NCBI RefSeq assembly: GCF_900129985.1
Contig: NZ_FQXN01000006.1
Coordinates: 1-62,690, forward strand
From: Thermosipho atlanticus DSM 15807
Lineage (GTDB): Bacteria > Thermotogota > Thermotogae > Thermotogales > Fervidobacteriaceae
Direction: 5' to 3'
Length of the DNA stretch: 62,690 nucleotides
In this document: in pieces, positions 4,326 to 13,536 of the stretch
Layout of the letters: the number at the start of each line of letters is the position of its first letter
Numbering within the stretch: the first letter of the stretch is position 1
Translations under genes and position numbers: made by a program
Notes under the pieces: generated by a model
Told to the model about the DNA's origin: nothing
The model's input: the letters and a program-made list of their open reading frames with translations, nothing else
Database searches by the model: none

Positions 4326-4374
4326 TTAAAATAAAATTAATGCAGTAACATGTGTTCAATAAGGAGTGGCTAAT

Positions 4375-5811
4375 GTGATTTACATCCTCACATTTTTTAT
4401 ATTTGTTTTAGCTTTTGTTATTATACTTTTATATCTAAAGAATACTAAACTCCTAAAAATTTTAAGAATTTTATCTGAAAAAAACAAGCAAATTTCTTTT
4501 GGAATTTGGAAAAGTGATAAATTGTTCTATTACACTCCTACTTTTGAAGAAAGTGCTAAAAAATTAAATATTAATTTCAATGAATTCAAAAAGGTTTCAA
4601 AAAACAAATTAAAATCACTTCTTGAAAAATATCCTACTTTACAGGAAATATTAGAAACGATTATTTTAAATTATCACGATGAAAATATTTCATTTGATAT
4701 TGAATTACCAATTGGAAATGAATTTTTCTTTGTTAAGTTCTTCAGAACAAAAATAAACAATATTAAATATTCATTCGTTTATGTAATAAACTTATCCACC
4801 AATATCAAAAACTTCGCTGAAGATCTTCTCAAGCCTCTTTTGAACACTCCAAGTGAAGTCTTTCAGTGTGTTCTAGATGGAAAGTCAACACACATATTGG
4901 GCGAAAAAATTTTCCAATACTTGAATAAAATCAATATGGTTGATTCTTTTGTTCTGGGGGTTAAACAAAATGATGGTTCAGTTAAAATTCACTATGCTAA
5001 CGTTGATGGAGAAGAACTAATAGATTTTATTATTCCTCCAGAACAGAAGTCTATAACTTCATATATTATTGATTTCAAGGTCAAACAATACTTTAAAAAT
5101 TCTTTTGATATCAAACTTCCACCAGGGTATAAAAAGATACACGTTGGCGAAAATATTCCAAATTCAATATATGGGGTACCTTTGTCTTTTGATAACCAAA
5201 CTTTCGGAGCTGTTTTGTTTGAAAAAAGAGGAATAGATCAGTTTACTTTTAAAGATTTCTATCTCTTTGATTTATTTGCATATATTATTTCTATAAACTA
5301 CAAATTAAAAAATACTATACGGGAATTGAGAATAGAAAAAGAAAAAAATTATTTAAATTCAATAGTTGATCCTCTAACAAAAGCATTTAATAGGACATTT
5401 TTAAACCATTTTCTCGAAAAAACAATTGCATATTCTAAAAGGAACAAACAAGAAAATACTTTGGTATTTATTGATTTAGATAACTTTAAACATATAAATG
5501 ATCAACATGGACATTTCTATGGAGATGAAATATTAAAAAATTTTGTTTCAGTAGCTAAAAAAACTCTGAGAAAAATGGATGTTATTGCAAGATACGGCGG
5601 TGACGAATTTATAATTGTTTTACCAAATACAAATATTAAAACCTCAAAAAAAGTTATCAATAGACTTCAAAAAGAAGCTTCAAAGCTTCAAACACCTATA
5701 CGATTTTCATATGGCTTAATCAACATAGATCCCGAAAAAGATTTAGAAGAGACTCTTAGAACGGTAGATGAAAAAATGTATGAAATGAAAAAAATGCAAA
5801 AAGACAGTTGA
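4375..5811 (+). CDS. Membrane-anchored diguanylate cyclase (GGDEF)
   Basis: It should make cyclic di-GMP from two GTP at the membrane. One transmembrane helix spans residues ~2-22. An unassigned sensory region (~40-310, possibly PAS or GAF-like) leads into a GGDEF domain at ~320-478. The active-site motif is intact (ARYGGDEFIIVLP, near residue 410), and a product-inhibition I-site RxxD (RKMD) lies five residues before it. The start is GTG 4375, eight bases after AAGGAG; the in-frame GTG at 4366 overlaps the ribosome site. The gene stands alone, divergent from clpC, and no terminator is obvious before the tRNA promoter. Confidence 0.9.
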   Translation: MIYILTFFIFVLAFVIILLYLKNTKLLKILRILSEKNKQISFGIWKSDKLFYYTPTFEESAKKLNINFNEFKKVSKNKLKSLLEKYPTLQEILETIILNYHDENISFDIELPIGNEFFFVKFFRTKINNIKYSFVYVINLSTNIKNFAEDLLKPLLNTPSEVFQCVLDGKSTHILGEKIFQYLNKINMVDSFVLGVKQNDGSVKIHYANVDGEELIDFIIPPEQKSITSYIIDFKVKQYFKNSFDIKLPPGYKKIHVGENIPNSIYGVPLSFDNQTFGAVLFEKRGIDQFTFKDFYLFDLFAYIISINYKLKNTIRELRIEKEKNYLNSIVDPLTKAFNRTFLNHFLEKTIAYSKRNKQENTLVFIDLDNFKHINDQHGHFYGDEILKNFVSVAKKTLRKMDVIARYGGDEFIIVLPNTNIKTSKKVINRLQKEASKLQTPIRFSYGLINIDPEKDLEETLRTVDEKMYEMKKMQKDS

Positions 5812-7581: not shown

Positions 7582-8559
7582 ATGATGAATGAAAATGCAA
7601 AAACTCCTGGGGGGTTATTTAGGAATAATTTCTCAGGTAAAAACTTGAGAGAAAAATCTACAATTCAGACCAGCAATTTTGTAATTAAAGACACTCCAGA
7701 AATTCAGACATATTCATTACAAGAAGTATTGAATAAGGTAATCCTGGGAGATGCTTTAAAAGTACTAAAGAAATTACCGAAAGAATCAGTAGATATGATT
7801 TTTATGGATCCCCCCTATTTCCTTCAACTACCGAACAAAAAATTAAAACGGTGGACAGTTAAAACTGAAGTGAACGCAGTAGATGATGACTGGGATAAAT
7901 TTGAATCTTTTGAAGAATATGATAACTTCATTAAAAATATACTCACGGAACTTAAAAGGGTTATGAAACCAAACGCTACAATATGGGTTATAGCAACATA
8001 TCACAGTATTTTCAGGATCGGTAAAATTATGCAGGATTTAGGTTTTTGGATACTTAATGATGTTCATTGGGTCAAAACAAACCCTATGCCTAACTGGCTA
8101 GGTGTTAGATTTACAAACGCAACAGAAACCTTGATTTGGGCTGTAAAGGACAAAAAAGCCAAAAAATATACCTTTAATAAAGCTTTGGCTAAAGAATTCG
8201 GAATTGGTAAAGTCGGAGCTAATGTATGGGTTCTTCCGATATGTAATGGGAAAGAACGATTGAAAGATGAAAATAGTAAAAAATTACATTCTACTCAAAA
8301 ACCAATTGAATTGTTAAAGAGAGTTATTTTGACAACCACTAAAGAAGGCGATGTTATTCTTGATCCTGTAGCGGGTGTAGGTACCACTGGATATGTAGCA
8401 AAAGCACTTAACAGGAATTTTATCATGATTGAAATCATTCCCAAATATGTGGAAGGTATTAAGAAAAGATTCCAAAAACCATTGAAGATCAGTTTAAATG
8501 GTTTTTCAAAAAATCAAAAGAAAATACAGGAATACTTGAACTTAAAGGTGAAAGAATGA
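7582..8559 (+). CDS. Type II DNA methyltransferase, HinfI-like beta class
   Basis: It should methylate adenine in a short DNA site and protect it from the enzyme encoded next. The order is catalytic motif IV first (VDMIFMDPPYF, Asp76-Tyr79) and the AdoMet motif I last (ILDPVAGVGTTG, ~261-272), which is the beta-class order. Blocks such as VDDDWDKFESFEEYDNF, FWILNDVHWVKTNPMPNW and KLHSTQKPIELL closely recall M.HinfI as I remember it, so GANTC is the likely target; this is inference. The length of 325 residues fits the family. AAGGAGG precedes the ATG. The stop overlaps the endonuclease start by ATGA. Confidence 0.93.
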   Translation: MMNENAKTPGGLFRNNFSGKNLREKSTIQTSNFVIKDTPEIQTYSLQEVLNKVILGDALKVLKKLPKESVDMIFMDPPYFLQLPNKKLKRWTVKTEVNAVDDDWDKFESFEEYDNFIKNILTELKRVMKPNATIWVIATYHSIFRIGKIMQDLGFWILNDVHWVKTNPMPNWLGVRFTNATETLIWAVKDKKAKKYTFNKALAKEFGIGKVGANVWVLPICNGKERLKDENSKKLHSTQKPIELLKRVILTTTKEGDVILDPVAGVGTTGYVAKALNRNFIMIEIIPKYVEGIKKRFQKPLKISLNGFSKNQKKIQEYLNLKVKE

Positions 8560-9419
8560 ATTATGAAAGATTCGTTGAATTATTGAATCAACACATTTTT
8601 GAAAAAGAAAAAAGAGATTTATTAAACAAGCTAGCAGAAAGACCAGAACGATTTATAGGGTTGTTTAGACCTACTAAACCCAGAGCAAAAATACTTCAAC
8701 ATTTACTTCAATCCCATGAAATAAGATTTGGAGATGCTATTGAAGAACTCACAACAGAAATTATAGCAGAACTAGGATATAGGAATCTTTCAAAAACTAT
8801 TAAAAATAGTAATGATGAAGTTTTATCACTTGATCAGTATTTTACAGATGGCAATACATATTATTTTATTGAACAAAAAGTAAGAGATGATCACGATTCA
8901 ACAAAAAAGAGAGGTCAAATAAATAATTTTGAAAAAAAGTTAGAAGTGCTCCATAACCTTCATAAAAATAATCTGGTAGGAATTATGTACTTTATTGATC
9001 CAGACTTAACTAAAAATAAAAATTTTTATGACAAGAAACTGCAATATTTTGCTAAATTTTATGGTTTAGAACTGAGGCTGTTTTATGGAAGAGAATTGTT
9101 TGAATACTTTAACGCACCTCAAATGTGGGACAATATAATCCAATGGCTAACTAAATGGAAAAATAATCTACCAGATTTACCTAAAATAAACTTTGATGAG
9201 AACCCAGAACAAAGCTTTGAAGAAATTAAAGAATTGGAAATCCGAAACTGGAGAAAATTACTTCAAAACGATAAATTATGGGAAGAAGGCATCATTTATG
9301 TACTTTTTAGAACTGGTGAAACTCTTCGATTAGTCCTAGAGTATTTTAGAAAACAAACCTCAACTCCATACATAAATCTCGAAAGGTTATTAAAAAAACG
9401 GTTAGAAGAGTATTATTGA
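8556..9419 (+). CDS. Type II restriction endonuclease (partner of the HinfI-like methyltransferase)
   Basis: It should cut unmethylated copies of the site modified by the upstream enzyme. The 287-residue protein has a PD-(D/E)xK-type core: Asp93 in SLDQYFTDG and Glu106-Gln-Lys108 in YYFIEQKVRDDHDSTKKRG. The block after EQK, with RDDHDSTKKRGQ, is what I recall from GANTC-type endonucleases, but I cannot confirm the subfamily. It is translationally coupled to the methyltransferase by a 4-base overlap. Both genes share the low GC of the region, so composition does not reveal a donor. Confidence 0.82.
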   Translation: MNYERFVELLNQHIFEKEKRDLLNKLAERPERFIGLFRPTKPRAKILQHLLQSHEIRFGDAIEELTTEIIAELGYRNLSKTIKNSNDEVLSLDQYFTDGNTYYFIEQKVRDDHDSTKKRGQINNFEKKLEVLHNLHKNNLVGIMYFIDPDLTKNKNFYDKKLQYFAKFYGLELRLFYGRELFEYFNAPQMWDNIIQWLTKWKNNLPDLPKINFDENPEQSFEEIKELEIRNWRKLLQNDKLWEEGIIYVLFRTGETLRLVLEYFRKQTSTPYINLERLLKKRLEEYY

Positions 9420-9478: not shown

Positions 9479-9509
9479 AAAACGTCCAGTAATTACACTG
9501 GACGTTTTT
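9479..9509 (+). terminator. Rho-independent terminator
   Basis: AACGTCCAGT and ACTGGACGTT pair perfectly around AATTAC and are followed by TTTTTG. It probably ended the tRNA-Asn transcript before the island arrived, and now ends the restriction-modification transcript. The A-rich other side means it may also work on the minus strand. Confidence 0.85.
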
Positions 9510-9607: not shown

Positions 9608-10228
9608 ATGGACAAAATTCTAAGAAAATTTACTGATGCTTTGCTGGATGGAAATAAAGTATACGCATCCCAAATAATCGAACAAAACATTTTCGAGTTT
9701 TTTTCTTTCGAAAAATTAATAGTAAATTCTTTAGAAAGAATAGGAAAGTTATGGGAAAATGGTGAAATATCTTTGGCCCAAGTATACATTAGCGGTATCA
9801 TATGTGAAGAATTGATGGACAAATGGACTAAAATGTATCAATTTAACAACGAAACAAATTTAAATTTAGCAATAGTTGTCTTAGAAGATCATCACACTCT
9901 TGGAAAAAGAATTGTCCAATCAATCCTAAAATCGTCCGGGTATAAGGTTAAAGATTATGGCTTGGGTAAAACTGTAGATGAAACTATCGATTTAACAATA
10001 AGAGATAATATAGAAATATTATTAGTATCTACATTAATGCTACCAGCAGCTTTAAAAGTCAAAGATTTAAAAACAAAACTACAAGATATGGGTATAGATA
10101 CCAAGATAATAGTAGGTGGAGCTCCTTTCAGAATTGACAAAACTTTATGGAAAGACGTTGGGGCAGATGCATACGCAGAACATGCTTCACAAATATTTGG
10201 TATATTGAAAAAGATGGTGAAAAAATGA
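9608..10228 (+). CDS. Corrinoid (B12-binding) methyl-carrier protein
   Basis: This is a cobamide carrier of the MtaC/MtbC type that shuttles a methyl group between two methyltransferases. A helical cap (~1-85) is followed by the Rossmann B12 domain. The signature DxHxxG is present as D94-H95-H96-T-L-G99, with His96 as the lower axial ligand. The SxL (VSTLML, ~141) and GG (IIVGGAPF, ~170) elements follow. The start is ATG 9608 behind GAGGG; an upstream ATG (9596) overlaps that site. It overlaps the next gene by ATGA, so the two are translated together. Confidence 0.92.
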   Translation: MDKILRKFTDALLDGNKVYASQIIEQNIFEFFSFEKLIVNSLERIGKLWENGEISLAQVYISGIICEELMDKWTKMYQFNNETNLNLAIVVLEDHHTLGKRIVQSILKSSGYKVKDYGLGKTVDETIDLTIRDNIEILLVSTLMLPAALKVKDLKTKLQDMGIDTKIIVGGAPFRIDKTLWKDVGADAYAEHASQIFGILKKMVKK

Positions 10229-11277
10229 AAGAAATGACCTCGGCAGAAAGAGTTTTTACTTCTATATCTTTCAAAGAACCTGATAGAGTTCCTTTATTTT
10301 TATGTCTTTCCTTTTATGGTGCTAAAGAACTGGGAATGTCAATAAAAGAATACTACTCTAATTATGAAAATGTTGTAGTTGCGCAGATCAAAATGAAAGA
10401 AAAGTATAACAACGACTGCTATAACAGTTTCTTTTATGCCTCTTTGGAAATAGAAGCATTTGGCGGAGGTACCATTTTTAGAGAGGACGGCCCTCCAAAT
10501 GCCAAAGAACCTATTATAAAAAAATTAGAAGATATAGATAACTTAGAAGTTCCTGATGTTAAATTTTCAAAACCATTAGAACAAGTTTTCGAAGTTCAGA
10601 AAAGGCTAAAAGAAAAAAGCTTAGGTAGCGTTCCTATTGTTGGGATCATCATTTCACCATTTTCACTTCCCATTATGCAAATGGGATTTGATAAATATTT
10701 AGAATTAATCTATTTTCACTCCGATTATTTTTGGAAATTAATGAATAAAAATATGACTTTTTCAATATCTTGGGCTAACATGCAATTAAAAGCTGGTGCG
10801 GACGTGATAGTTTATTTTGATCCCATGCTTTCTACTGAAATGCTTCCCAAAGATATCATTTTAAAAACCGGATATAAGATAGCTAAAAAAACCTTATCAT
10901 TAATAAATGGGCCCGTAGCAATCCATCTTGCTTCTGCAAAAACCGAAGGAATTGTAGAAGATTTAATAAAAACAAAAGCGATTGCATTAGGAATAAGTAA
11001 AAATGACAATTTAAAGTTTTTAAAAAGTAAAACATATGGAAAAATAAGCATTATTGGCAATCTAGATACTATATCAATGAGAAAATGGAGTTATAAAGAA
11101 GTGGAAGAAAATGTGAAAAAAGCAATTTTTGAAGGCGCAAAAGGTGGAGGTTTCATTCTTTCTGATAATCACGGTGAAATTCCTTGGCAAGTAAATGAAG
11201 AAATACTTTTCTTAATAGCTGAAGCAGTAAGAAAATATGGTCAATACCCTATTAGAGAGGAAAGTTACTATGGATGA
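10225..11277 (+). CDS. UroD/MtaA-family cobamide methyltransferase without the usual zinc cysteines
   Basis: The product is related to uroporphyrinogen decarboxylase and to MtaA/MtbA, and should move a methyl group on or off the corrinoid protein encoded just upstream. The start MKEMTSAERVF with RVPLFLCLSFYGAKELG is typical. In MtaA zinc is held by HxC and a later Cys. Here the first motif reads AIHLASAKTEG (H-L-A) and the later one GGFILSDNHGEIPW, so both cysteines are missing. Methylation of a thiol by the MtaA mechanism is therefore doubtful, and a different substrate or a sensory role is possible. The start at ATG 10225 overlaps the corrinoid gene. The end overlaps the next gene. Confidence 0.85.
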   Translation: MKEMTSAERVFTSISFKEPDRVPLFLCLSFYGAKELGMSIKEYYSNYENVVVAQIKMKEKYNNDCYNSFFYASLEIEAFGGGTIFREDGPPNAKEPIIKKLEDIDNLEVPDVKFSKPLEQVFEVQKRLKEKSLGSVPIVGIIISPFSLPIMQMGFDKYLELIYFHSDYFWKLMNKNMTFSISWANMQLKAGADVIVYFDPMLSTEMLPKDIILKTGYKIAKKTLSLINGPVAIHLASAKTEGIVEDLIKTKAIALGISKNDNLKFLKSKTYGKISIIGNLDTISMRKWSYKEVEENVKKAIFEGAKGGGFILSDNHGEIPWQVNEEILFLIAEAVRKYGQYPIREESYYG

Positions 11278-12730
11278 TAAGATTAAATTATTTGTATGCG
11301 AAAATTTTGAAAAAGAATTCAAAAATGTGGCAAAAACTCAAAAAGAAAATTTAAATATTTATTCATTTCCGTCATATTGCACAAGTTTAAAGTTAGACAA
11401 ACAGGAAAAGTTTATTAAAGATAATCTCGAAAATTTAAAAAATTCTATTTGTATATGTGGGCGTTTTTGCGAATTATTAAACAAAATTCCAGAAAAAATC
11501 AAAAAAAATATGAAAATTTATCAATTAGATAACTGCTTCTATATTTTTGGAAAAAATAAAGTAAACAAATATCTAAATGAAAATTCATTCATTGTTACTC
11601 CGGAATGGTTAGAAAAATGGAAAGAAATTATGTCTAACTATGGATTTGACAAAAAAACTGCTCGAAAATTTTTTAACGAATCATTTAAGAAAATTGTTCT
11701 TTTTGATACTAAAATTAATGATAAGATCATAGATCAATTAATAGATTTCTCAAACTTTGTATCACTACCATACAATATTGAAGAAATAGAATTGGATTTT
11801 CTAGAAATTTTTGTTTCAAAAATTCTTAATGAATTCAAATTAAAGCAAGAACTTGAAAAAAAAGAAAAAAAGATTAAAGAATTAAACTCCGAAAAAAGTA
11901 ATTATATTGCTGCTATGCACATGATAAAAGAGTTTTCAACAATTGAATCTTCCGAAGAAATTATTAAAGGCATAATAAACGAGCTAAAAATTTTGTTTGC
12001 ACCTAAACAAATTCAATACGTTAAATATGATGGAAAAGATTTTTTAAATGGGAAAAAGTTTTAAACTATAAATAAAAATGAAGGTTTTATCATTAAAATC
12101 GAATATGAAAACAAAATTTTTGGCTATATAAAGTGTAAAGATTTTTTATTCCCAGAATATTTTTATGAATATCTAAACTTCATTGTAAATGTTTCTGAAG
12201 TATATGGTTTAATGCTTTCAAATGCTTACAAAATTGAACAAATAAAATTACTTTCTATAACCGATCATCTAACCGGTATATATAATAGAAGATATTTTGA
12301 AATTAGACTAAAAGAAGAAATAGAGAGAGCTAAAAGAAATAAAAGCGCTTTTTCCATAATATTATTTGATATAGACGACTTTAAGTTAATAAATGATAGT
12401 TACGGTCATGAAATTGGGGATAAAATACTAAAAAAGATTGTTGACCTGGTTAAAAGCCGCATACGAAGTACGGATTTATTTTTTAGATGGGGTGGAGATG
12501 AATTTATTATCTTATTACCTGATACAGATTTAAATAATGCAAAAGTTTTAGCTGAACAACTAAGGCAAAAGATATATGAAACTAATTTCGAGATTAATAA
12601 CAATATCTCTGCAAGTTTTGGTATAACAAGTTATACCAAAGGTATTTCTTTAACAGAATTAATGAAAAAAATAGATTTCTTGATGTATGAAGCCAAAAAA
12701 CTTGGAAAAAATAAGATTTGTTATTCATAA
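11270..12730 (+). pseudogene. DUF1638-like/GGDEF protein interrupted by one in-frame TAA
   Basis: One reading frame of 486 codons is broken only by TAA at 12062-12064 (codon 265). Residues ~1-190 resemble DUF1638, a family often next to corrinoid methyltransferases (SICICGRFCELL, IYQLDNCFYIFG, SFIVTPEWLEKW). A coiled coil (~195-215) and a GAF-like region follow. After the stop the frame continues with the rest of the GAF-like part and a complete GGDEF domain (FRWGGDEFIILLP; I-site RSTD five residues before). The start ATG 11270 follows GAGAGGAAAG and overlaps the methyltransferase stop. The cyclase part could restart only at ATG 12212, which has no good ribosome site. The options are a recent nonsense mutation, readthrough, or a sequencing error. 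Confidence 0.75.
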
Positions 12731-13536
12731 ATTTTAAAAAGAATTTTTTTAAATCATTTTTTTAAACTAATAGAAAACAGAAAATCAAATTTTCTCCGTT
12801 GCCTATTCAAATCTGGAAAAAGTACGCTCACACCAACCCAAAAGCAAAGGACATGAGAATGTAAATCACCTGGATGAAAATTTAACCAAACAAAAATGAT
12901 AAAACTATAAACTGTAATTTGGATTCTCTGTAATTAAAAATTGTTAAGGAAAACGTGCAAAGACATGCGGCAAATAAAATTTAAAGCAAAATCCACATAT
13001 GTAAATTCAAGGAATATTTATTTTCCCTTAAAGTAAGAGATATGTTAGCGGGCATGGGCTTTTTTGATATTTTATACTTTGTTCCTATTGAATTCAATTA
13101 ACAAGTTGGGTGTACTCATATAACACATTTGCTTATTGAGAAACATTGGATACGACTTGGAACATTGCACTAAACGACTACATGCAAAAAAAATCTTTAT
13201 TTTTATAATAAATATCAAAAAGTCTCATATCCTCAAACTTTCGACTTTTTAAAAATAGATGTGAAAATAAAAAATTTACCTTTCCTTGCGGGTAAGAGCT
13301 TTTGCTATTTACTTACTCCCCACTATTACTTATTATTTTCTGTTTAGCTTTTTATAAAATTTGCATGGATATTCATATGAACTTTGTGTTTGAAGTTAAT
13401 TGCTTTACCTTTTTTCATTGGCCCCTTGTTATTCTAGGAAACTTTTTGTTAGAATATACAGTATAAAAGGTAAAGATTCCCAATGTATGTAAAGATTTAA
13501 AAAATAAAATTGTTAACAATGAAATGAGGTGAAGTC
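12731..13536. other. ~800-base region without a recognisable gene
   Basis: Stops crowd all frames. Short open pieces such as MLAGMGFFDILYFVP (13042 on) could be remnants of a decayed gene, but I cannot place them. The promoter of pcp should lie in the last 100 bases (possible TATACAGTATAAAA near 13455). Confidence 0.4.

Follow-up and report, generated by a model that had tools for sequence, protein, structure and literature searches.

Gene content of the locus

The window analyzed here (62,690 nucleotides, contig 6 of the 1.64-Mb genome of Thermosipho atlanticus DSM 15807) contains a module of three genes, and all of the features described below are on the + strand. The first gene (9608 to 10228) encodes a 206-amino-acid corrinoid (B12) carrier protein with a four-helix cap and a Rossmann B12 domain, which matched Pfam B12-binding_2 (36.5 bits) and B12-binding (61.2 bits). 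The second gene (10225 to 11277) encodes a 350-amino-acid UroD/MtaA-like TIM-barrel protein (Pfam URO-D, 164 bits), a predicted corrinoid methyltransferase. The third starts with a DUF1638 domain (residues 1 to 175; 11270 to 11794), followed by a coiled coil and the first part of a GAF-like domain (11795 to 12061), which were delineated with an AlphaFold2 model of the homologue in genome G059 and with Foldseek. An in-frame TAA stop codon (12062 to 12064) splits the sensor from its output. Past the stop, the same frame contains the remainder of the GAF-like domain and a signaling helix (12065 to 12211; assigned by alignment with intact homologues) and then a GGDEF diguanylate cyclase domain starting at the next ATG (12212 to 12730; Pfam GGDEF, about 159 to 160 bits). 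The GGDEF active motif (12491 to 12505) and the RxxD I-site (12464 to 12475) are intact. A PilZ-type c-di-GMP receptor was not detected in the genome.

The corrinoid and UroD genes overlap by 4 bp (10225 to 10228) and the UroD and DUF1638 genes by 8 bp (11270 to 11277). This layout shows one operon encoding the corrinoid carrier, the UroD-superfamily protein, and the DUF1638-coil-GAF-output protein. A terminator-like hairpin with a 12-bp stem, a 6-nt loop, and a T-rich tail (9479 to 9508) lies between the module and the upstream DNA-methylase genes, but it is weak on its own (1 found versus 1.4 in shuffled sequences). A gene relic was also looked for in positions 12731 to 13536, and none was convincing.

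A sequence-only reading of this DNA had described a B12 carrier with an intact DxHxxG motif, a UroD/MtaA-type protein, and overlapping genes, and each of these was recovered here. It had also assigned residues 1 to 190 of the third protein to DUF1638, and the profile search placed this domain at residues 1 to 175 (36.4 bits, E value of 6e-9, curated cut-off of 27). The DUF1638-like/GGDEF protein that it proposed was confirmed as to both domains, which were matched by Pfam, but not as to their continuity, as the TAA at 12062 to 12064 interrupts the frame.

Corrinoid and UroD proteins

The cobalamin-binding motif DxHxLG of the corrinoid protein (residues 94 to 99; 9887 to 9904) is invariant, with D94, H96, L98, and G99 present in 100% of 77 sequences. 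The protein has the cap, B12-binding domain, and DxHxxG motif that characterize the MtaC/MtbC/MtgC type. Among the named subfamilies, its best match was NCBIfam pyl_corrinoid, at 72.6 bits and thus below the cut-off of 215.3.

The UroD protein gave profile matches to MtaA (4ay7; MtaA structure, E value of 2e-15) and to UroD structures. Its scores against the MtaA/CmuA-type families, 75 to 100 bits overall, were all below the cut-offs of 235 to 600, including those for TIGR01463 (87.9 bits; cut-off, 235) and NF040654 (75 bits; cut-off, 400). In MtaA, the zinc ligands are HxC and a distal Cys. Alignment to MtaA placed H234-x-A236 (10924 to 10932) at the HxC position, and H234 and A236 were each conserved in 99% of 86 sequences. 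The MtaA zinc cysteines are thus missing from the family: the first motif reads HxA in 99% of the sequences, and the distal Cys is replaced by DNH in 90% to 99%. The latter corresponds to D314-N-H316 (11164 to 11172), in which D314 (98%) and H316 (99%) are invariant active-site candidates. Since the first zinc cysteine position is occupied by alanine, activation of a thiol acceptor in the manner of MtaA is unlikely.

Predicted sensor protein and premature stop codon

The DUF1638 domain contains four near-invariant cysteine residues, Cys10 (11297 to 11299; 98% of 61 sequences), Cys37 (11378 to 11380; 97%), Cys67 (11468 to 11470; 97%), and Cys89 (11534 to 11536; 92%). An AlphaFold2 model of the G059 homologue (pLDDT of 93) places each cysteine after the C-terminal end of a strand, the four strands being consecutive; this arrangement would bring the cysteines together. 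The canonical stand-alone DUF1638 protein of genome G045 lacks the second cysteine. No convincing solved relative of DUF1638 was identified by sequence or by fold (no clear match in Foldseek).

For the middle domain, the best plausible Foldseek matches were GAF domains (probability of about 1.0 to several of them, with E values above 0.001). This region matched neither Pfam GAF nor any other Pfam family, both in the window and in the other sensors that were scanned, and PocR and MEDS domains were likewise without a Pfam match there. In at least nine sensor genes, the GAF-like domain is present and DUF1638 is not detectable. DUF1638 therefore cannot be the only input, and the core of the relay may lie in the GAF-like domain.

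In the window, the TAA codon ends the frame of the third gene after 264 amino acids, in the middle of the GAF-like domain; the frame beyond it remains open. A continuous DUF1638-GAF-GGDEF reading frame is thus absent here, whereas it is present in seven other Thermotogota species. The TAA is aligned with a GAA (Glu) codon, one base apart, in G059, the closest relative. Between the window and G059, amino acid identity and dN/dS are alike on either side of the stop (dN/dS, 0.09 to 0.17). Because of this alignment and the low dN/dS on both sides, the comparison points to a nonsense mutation of recent date or to an error in the sequence rather than to old decay. Barring a sequence error, the stop would uncouple DUF1638 from the cyclase, leaving the cyclase silent or produced as a free GGDEF protein.

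Relatives within Thermotogota

A DUF1638 search of 103 Thermotogota species identified eight genomes, including that of the window, and a ninth (G026) was recognized through its UroD gene. Among the eight relatives, seven (G016, G014, G059, G025, G026, G042, and G046) combine the corrinoid and UroD genes with a DUF1638-GGDEF gene encoding an uninterrupted sensor of 478 to 512 amino acids. The eighth, G045, has a more distant version in which a stand-alone DUF1638 gene is followed by an overlapping gene for an HD-GYP-type HD-domain protein; this domain is the usual c-di-GMP phosphodiesterase fold. Searches for DUF1638-GGDEF fusions and for the three genes together in other Thermotogae thus agreed with what had been proposed from the window, the gene set recurring in seven further species of Thermotogota and in dozens of genomes besides.

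The copy in the window is closest to that of G059, a member of another family (78% identity for the UroD protein and 72% for the corrinoid protein). The identity of its UroD protein to that of G016, a genome of the same genus, is only 62%, whereas the RpoB identities are 94.5% to G016 and 64% to G059. These values rule out vertical inheritance of the window copy. Because UroD is nearest to G059 while RpoB is nearest to G016, they show horizontal acquisition of the copy in one of the lineages concerned.

Distribution and outputs beyond the phylum

The DUF1638 protein, used as a single query sequence against genome contigs, gave no match. We describe the wider distribution from a scan of GTDB genomes that was keyed only on alignment to UroD, the neighboring genes being outside the query. 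It yielded 255 relatives, of which the best 80 loci (47% to 62% identity to the window UroD) were kept. These best 80 loci are spread over at least 13 named phyla and include some from methanogenic archaea. The gene directly after UroD encodes DUF1638 and/or the conserved GAF-like domain in 72 of the 77 assessable loci, and the gap between the two genes is 50 bp or less, or the genes overlap, in 63 of these 72. Two of the five exceptions stop at a contig edge, and another, L127, has a second UroD gene and then the sensor. A corrinoid gene is located upstream of UroD in 69 of the 77 loci. Confinement of the fusion to Thermotogota, which had been considered, was dropped, as the sensor gene follows UroD in loci of at least 13 phyla.

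Most of the sensors are fused to an output: about 45 have the motifs of histidine kinases (confirmed with Pfam for 12), 15 have GGDEF domains, and one has a SpoIIE phosphatase. On the UroD tree, at least nine switches occur between GGDEF and kinase outputs, and five of these are forced by well-supported branches. Over the family, the output (GGDEF, histidine kinase, or SpoIIE) has been exchanged repeatedly. A further two-component signaling protein is encoded nearby in 42 of the 80 loci, a raw count given without a genomic background rate; the nearby two-component genes have a strong strand bias, with 63 of 72 on the same strand as the module. Across the 80 loci, no catabolic or metabolic gene family was recurrent beside the module, and neither homocysteine-methyltransferase nor pterin-binding genes recurred there.

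The link to c-di-GMP that had been suggested for the window stands only in part: GGDEF is indeed an output, but it is one of several, and histidine kinases are commoner. For this reason, the essence of the family is the corrinoid-coupled sensor and not the c-di-GMP link as such.

Catabolic genes in the genome

The absence of MtaB or MttB next to the module, noted from the sequence alone, extends to the whole genome. The genome also contains no RACo/RamA-type corrinoid reactivase. Its only pterin-binding protein (285 amino acids) is taken, because of its length, to be dihydropteroate synthase, an enzyme of folate synthesis, and on this assignment no methyl-folate methyltransferase is present. 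Since MttB, MtaB, a corrinoid reactivase, and a methyl-folate methyltransferase are all missing, a catabolic role in this genome is unlikely, and the view of the module as a sensor rather than a catabolic unit is strengthened. MttB and MtaB are likewise absent from G016, G014, and G059, and the reductive activase (RACo/RamA) is absent from G000, G016, G014, and G059, the last of which is not among the 18 matching genomes. The coupling of DUF1638 with RamA/RACo described by Price et al. for alphaproteobacteria, if taken as universal, fails in Thermotogota.

Other Thermotogota UroD genes, about 24% identical to that of the window, often adjoin RACo (e.g., in G043, G044, G047-G050, and G052), which gives them the look of turnover-type corrinoid operons. 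The contrast favors a sensor role for the clade to which the module in the window belongs.

Relationship to known systems

In Phaeobacter inhibens, which makes methionine with a split B12-dependent synthase, DUF1638 is required for this synthesis and, together with a RamA-like protein, has been assigned to B12 reactivation with no specific function given (PMC5764234); the assignment was repeated for Ruegeria (PMC12478193). As in our module, the Phaeobacter DUF1638 (PF07796) gene adjoins that of a B12-binding corrinoid protein and is needed for corrinoid function. However, the Phaeobacter protein is stand-alone, occurs with homocysteine and pterin methyltransferases, and has no signaling domain, whereas DUF1638 of the module is fused to a GAF-like domain and an output and occurs with a UroD protein. 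The MtaA/CmuA-type methyltransferases share with the module the UroD fold and a corrinoid partner encoded next door, but the module differs in the replaced zinc motif (HxA and DNH for HxC...C), in its scores below the cut-offs, and in having no substrate-specific partner.

Kinases that contain PocR or MEDS domains and are encoded beside methyltransferases have been described before (PMC9768040, PMC11784639). The PocR/MEDS sensor MecA of the dichloromethane cassette is a signaling protein encoded with a corrinoid protein and UroD enzymes and predicted to sense C1 compounds (PMC9768040). The module, in contrast, has no PocR or MEDS domain, uses DUF1638-GAF as its input, consists of a three-gene operon only, and has variable outputs. 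It resembles other GGDEF diguanylate cyclases with N-terminal sensors in its intact GGDEF motif and I-site and in the coiled coil leading to the catalytic domain, but its input unit would be an enzyme pair plus DUF1638-GAF. To our knowledge, the RdmS/MsmS kinases of Methanosarcina have no corrinoid protein and UroD protein of their own. As far as the account cited in PMC11784639 goes, these kinases are, like the module, tied to corrinoid methyl-transfer physiology, and the published description sets them apart by their input domains.

In the open-access literature, with subscription papers and preprints outside the search, no description of a corrinoid-UroD-DUF1638-GAF-output module was found, in line with the earlier remark that no such system was known. 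The three-gene sensing operon is thus apparently undescribed.

Proposed mechanism and alternatives

We consider it probable that the locus belongs to a widespread family of corrinoid-methyltransferase-coupled signaling operons, in which a dedicated corrinoid is monitored by DUF1638-GAF for its methyl-transfer or redox state, which is then sent to a swappable output, and that the member in the window is broken at one codon. The predicted sensing role is well supported by the anatomy of the operon, and we infer the ligand and the direction of signaling as follows. The UroD protein would catalyze methyl exchange between the cobalt of the carrier and a small, conserved substrate. Through its putative four-cysteine metal or thiol site, DUF1638 would dock on the carrier, maintain the cobalt in its active form, and read its methylation or redox state. 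This state would then be relayed via the coiled coil and the GAF-like domain to the dimeric output, here for c-di-GMP synthesis.

The same proteins could instead form an operon for the catabolism or assimilation of a methyl compound, in which UroD and the corrinoid protein obtain carbon by demethylation of a substrate, the fused sensor doing no more than tuning expression. UroD-superfamily and corrinoid proteins have catabolic roles together in the use of chloromethane, methanol, and dichloromethane, the mec cassette encodes a PocR histidine kinase next to its methyltransferases (PMC9768040), and formate-tetrahydrofolate ligase adjoins the module in two relatives. However, a second methyltransferase, MttB, MtaB, and RACo are missing from the genome of the window, the last three also from G016, G014, and G059; the 80 loci have no recurrent catabolic neighbor; and it is the other, 24% identical UroD genes that often lie directly beside RACo. 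We regard this possibility as quite unlikely. Reporting of cobalt oxidation or B12 supply, rather than of a methyl donor, by a maintenance unit like that for the split methionine synthase, with DUF1638 keeping the corrinoid reduced, would suit the cofitness of DUF1638 with the RamA-like reactivase and the split methionine synthase in Phaeobacter (PMC5764234), the four-cysteine site, and the presence of modules in genomes that lack RACo, for which DUF1638 might substitute. Such a unit leaves unexplained a UroD protein conserved at 47% to 62% identity to that of the window across phyla, and no homocysteine-methyltransferase or pterin-binding gene recurs beside the module; it is a distinctly improbable account of the family.

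Two further proposals concern the site at which the signal arises. The GAF fold is a classic small-ligand pocket, and in a variant of our preferred explanation, the GAF-like domain would be the true input, binding a small product of UroD, with DUF1638 only an accessory. Its retention in at least nine sensors without DUF1638 and the Foldseek support for the fold agree with this, but most sensors have DUF1638 with its four near-invariant cysteines, and the conserved GAF residues are mostly structural-looking, so that we think the variant rather doubtful. It is unlikely, though conceivable, that sensing is covalent, the four-cysteine site of DUF1638 receiving a methyl group (or an electron) from the UroD/corrinoid pair and the modification itself switching the interchangeable output. 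Finally, the locus in this genome alone might be a decaying remnant without function, which would be compatible with the explanation preferred for the family. The stop codon at 12062 is in keeping with decay, as is genome G018 of the same genus, in which UroD is cut at residue ~152 and joined to an unrelated domain and DUF1638-GGDEF is lost, so gene loss does occur in the genus. Against this, the corrinoid and UroD genes are intact, with every invariant residue kept, and dN/dS with respect to G059 is about 0.1 to 0.17 on both sides of the stop. A remnant is therefore possible but, in our judgment, somewhat unlikely.

Significance

The known role of B12 enzymes is catalysis, and regulation by B12 itself runs through riboswitches and CarH. 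A dedicated corrinoid protein and methyltransferase with no other task than supplying input to a kinase or cyclase would represent a new kind of sensory input. It would extend over at least 13 phyla, with methanogens, sulfate reducers, and methanotrophs among its hosts. Covalent methyl sensing, if true, would be an enzyme-driven sensing mode across bacteria and archaea, unlike that of the ligand-binding PAS, GAF, and PocR domains. As the module is small (three genes) and its thermophilic versions should purify easily, the idea is directly testable. The proposed family would explain the role of many DUF1638 proteins, supply a hypothesis on the ligand of dozens of orphan kinases, and tie one-carbon metabolism to c-di-GMP and phosphorelay control.

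Genomic surroundings of the module

The module lies directly downstream of an N6/N4 DNA methylase gene and an overlapping gene for a 287-aa protein (window 7582-9419). The 287-aa protein has no Pfam match, and together the two genes are likely to be a restriction-modification pair; their position immediately 5' of the module is consistent with an acquired island. On the other side, the module is followed by about 800 bp (window 12731-13536) that contain no credible gene and extend as far as a pyroglutamyl-peptidase-like gene; tblastx comparison of this region with relatives found no gene relic. A second GGDEF protein (481 aa) is encoded ~4 kb upstream of the module (window 4366-5811). The genome carries about eight intact GGDEF genes, and no match to the c-di-GMP receptor PilZ was found in it.

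Related loci in other genomes

In G018, a genome of the same genus, UroD is reduced to its N-terminal 150 residues, which continue in frame into a PEP-utilising mobile domain (locus L051, 955-2121), and the sensor is gone. A formate-tetrahydrofolate ligase gene is convergent with the module in both L004 (G016, same genus) and L005 (relative G014). Six Desulfobacteraceae loci encode versions without DUF1638. After the GAF-like domain these carry a conserved tail, CxHCKxxRDDxGYWxQ...C..C, with the appearance of a metal-binding element; at one of the loci (L101), a gene for a pentapeptide-repeat class-I adenylate cyclase comes next.

Other, distant UroD genes directly adjoin or lie near genes for the corrinoid reactivase RACo in eight Thermotogota genomes, an arrangement that we regard as a separate, catabolic-looking type of corrinoid operon. 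In the relative G045 (locus L019, 1793-4082), a stand-alone DUF1638 gene overlaps one whose product carries an HD (HD-GYP-type) domain at its C-terminus. Judged from its domain type, this partner would act on c-di-GMP in the opposite direction, and it is encoded next to a distant form of the corrinoid/UroD enzyme pair.
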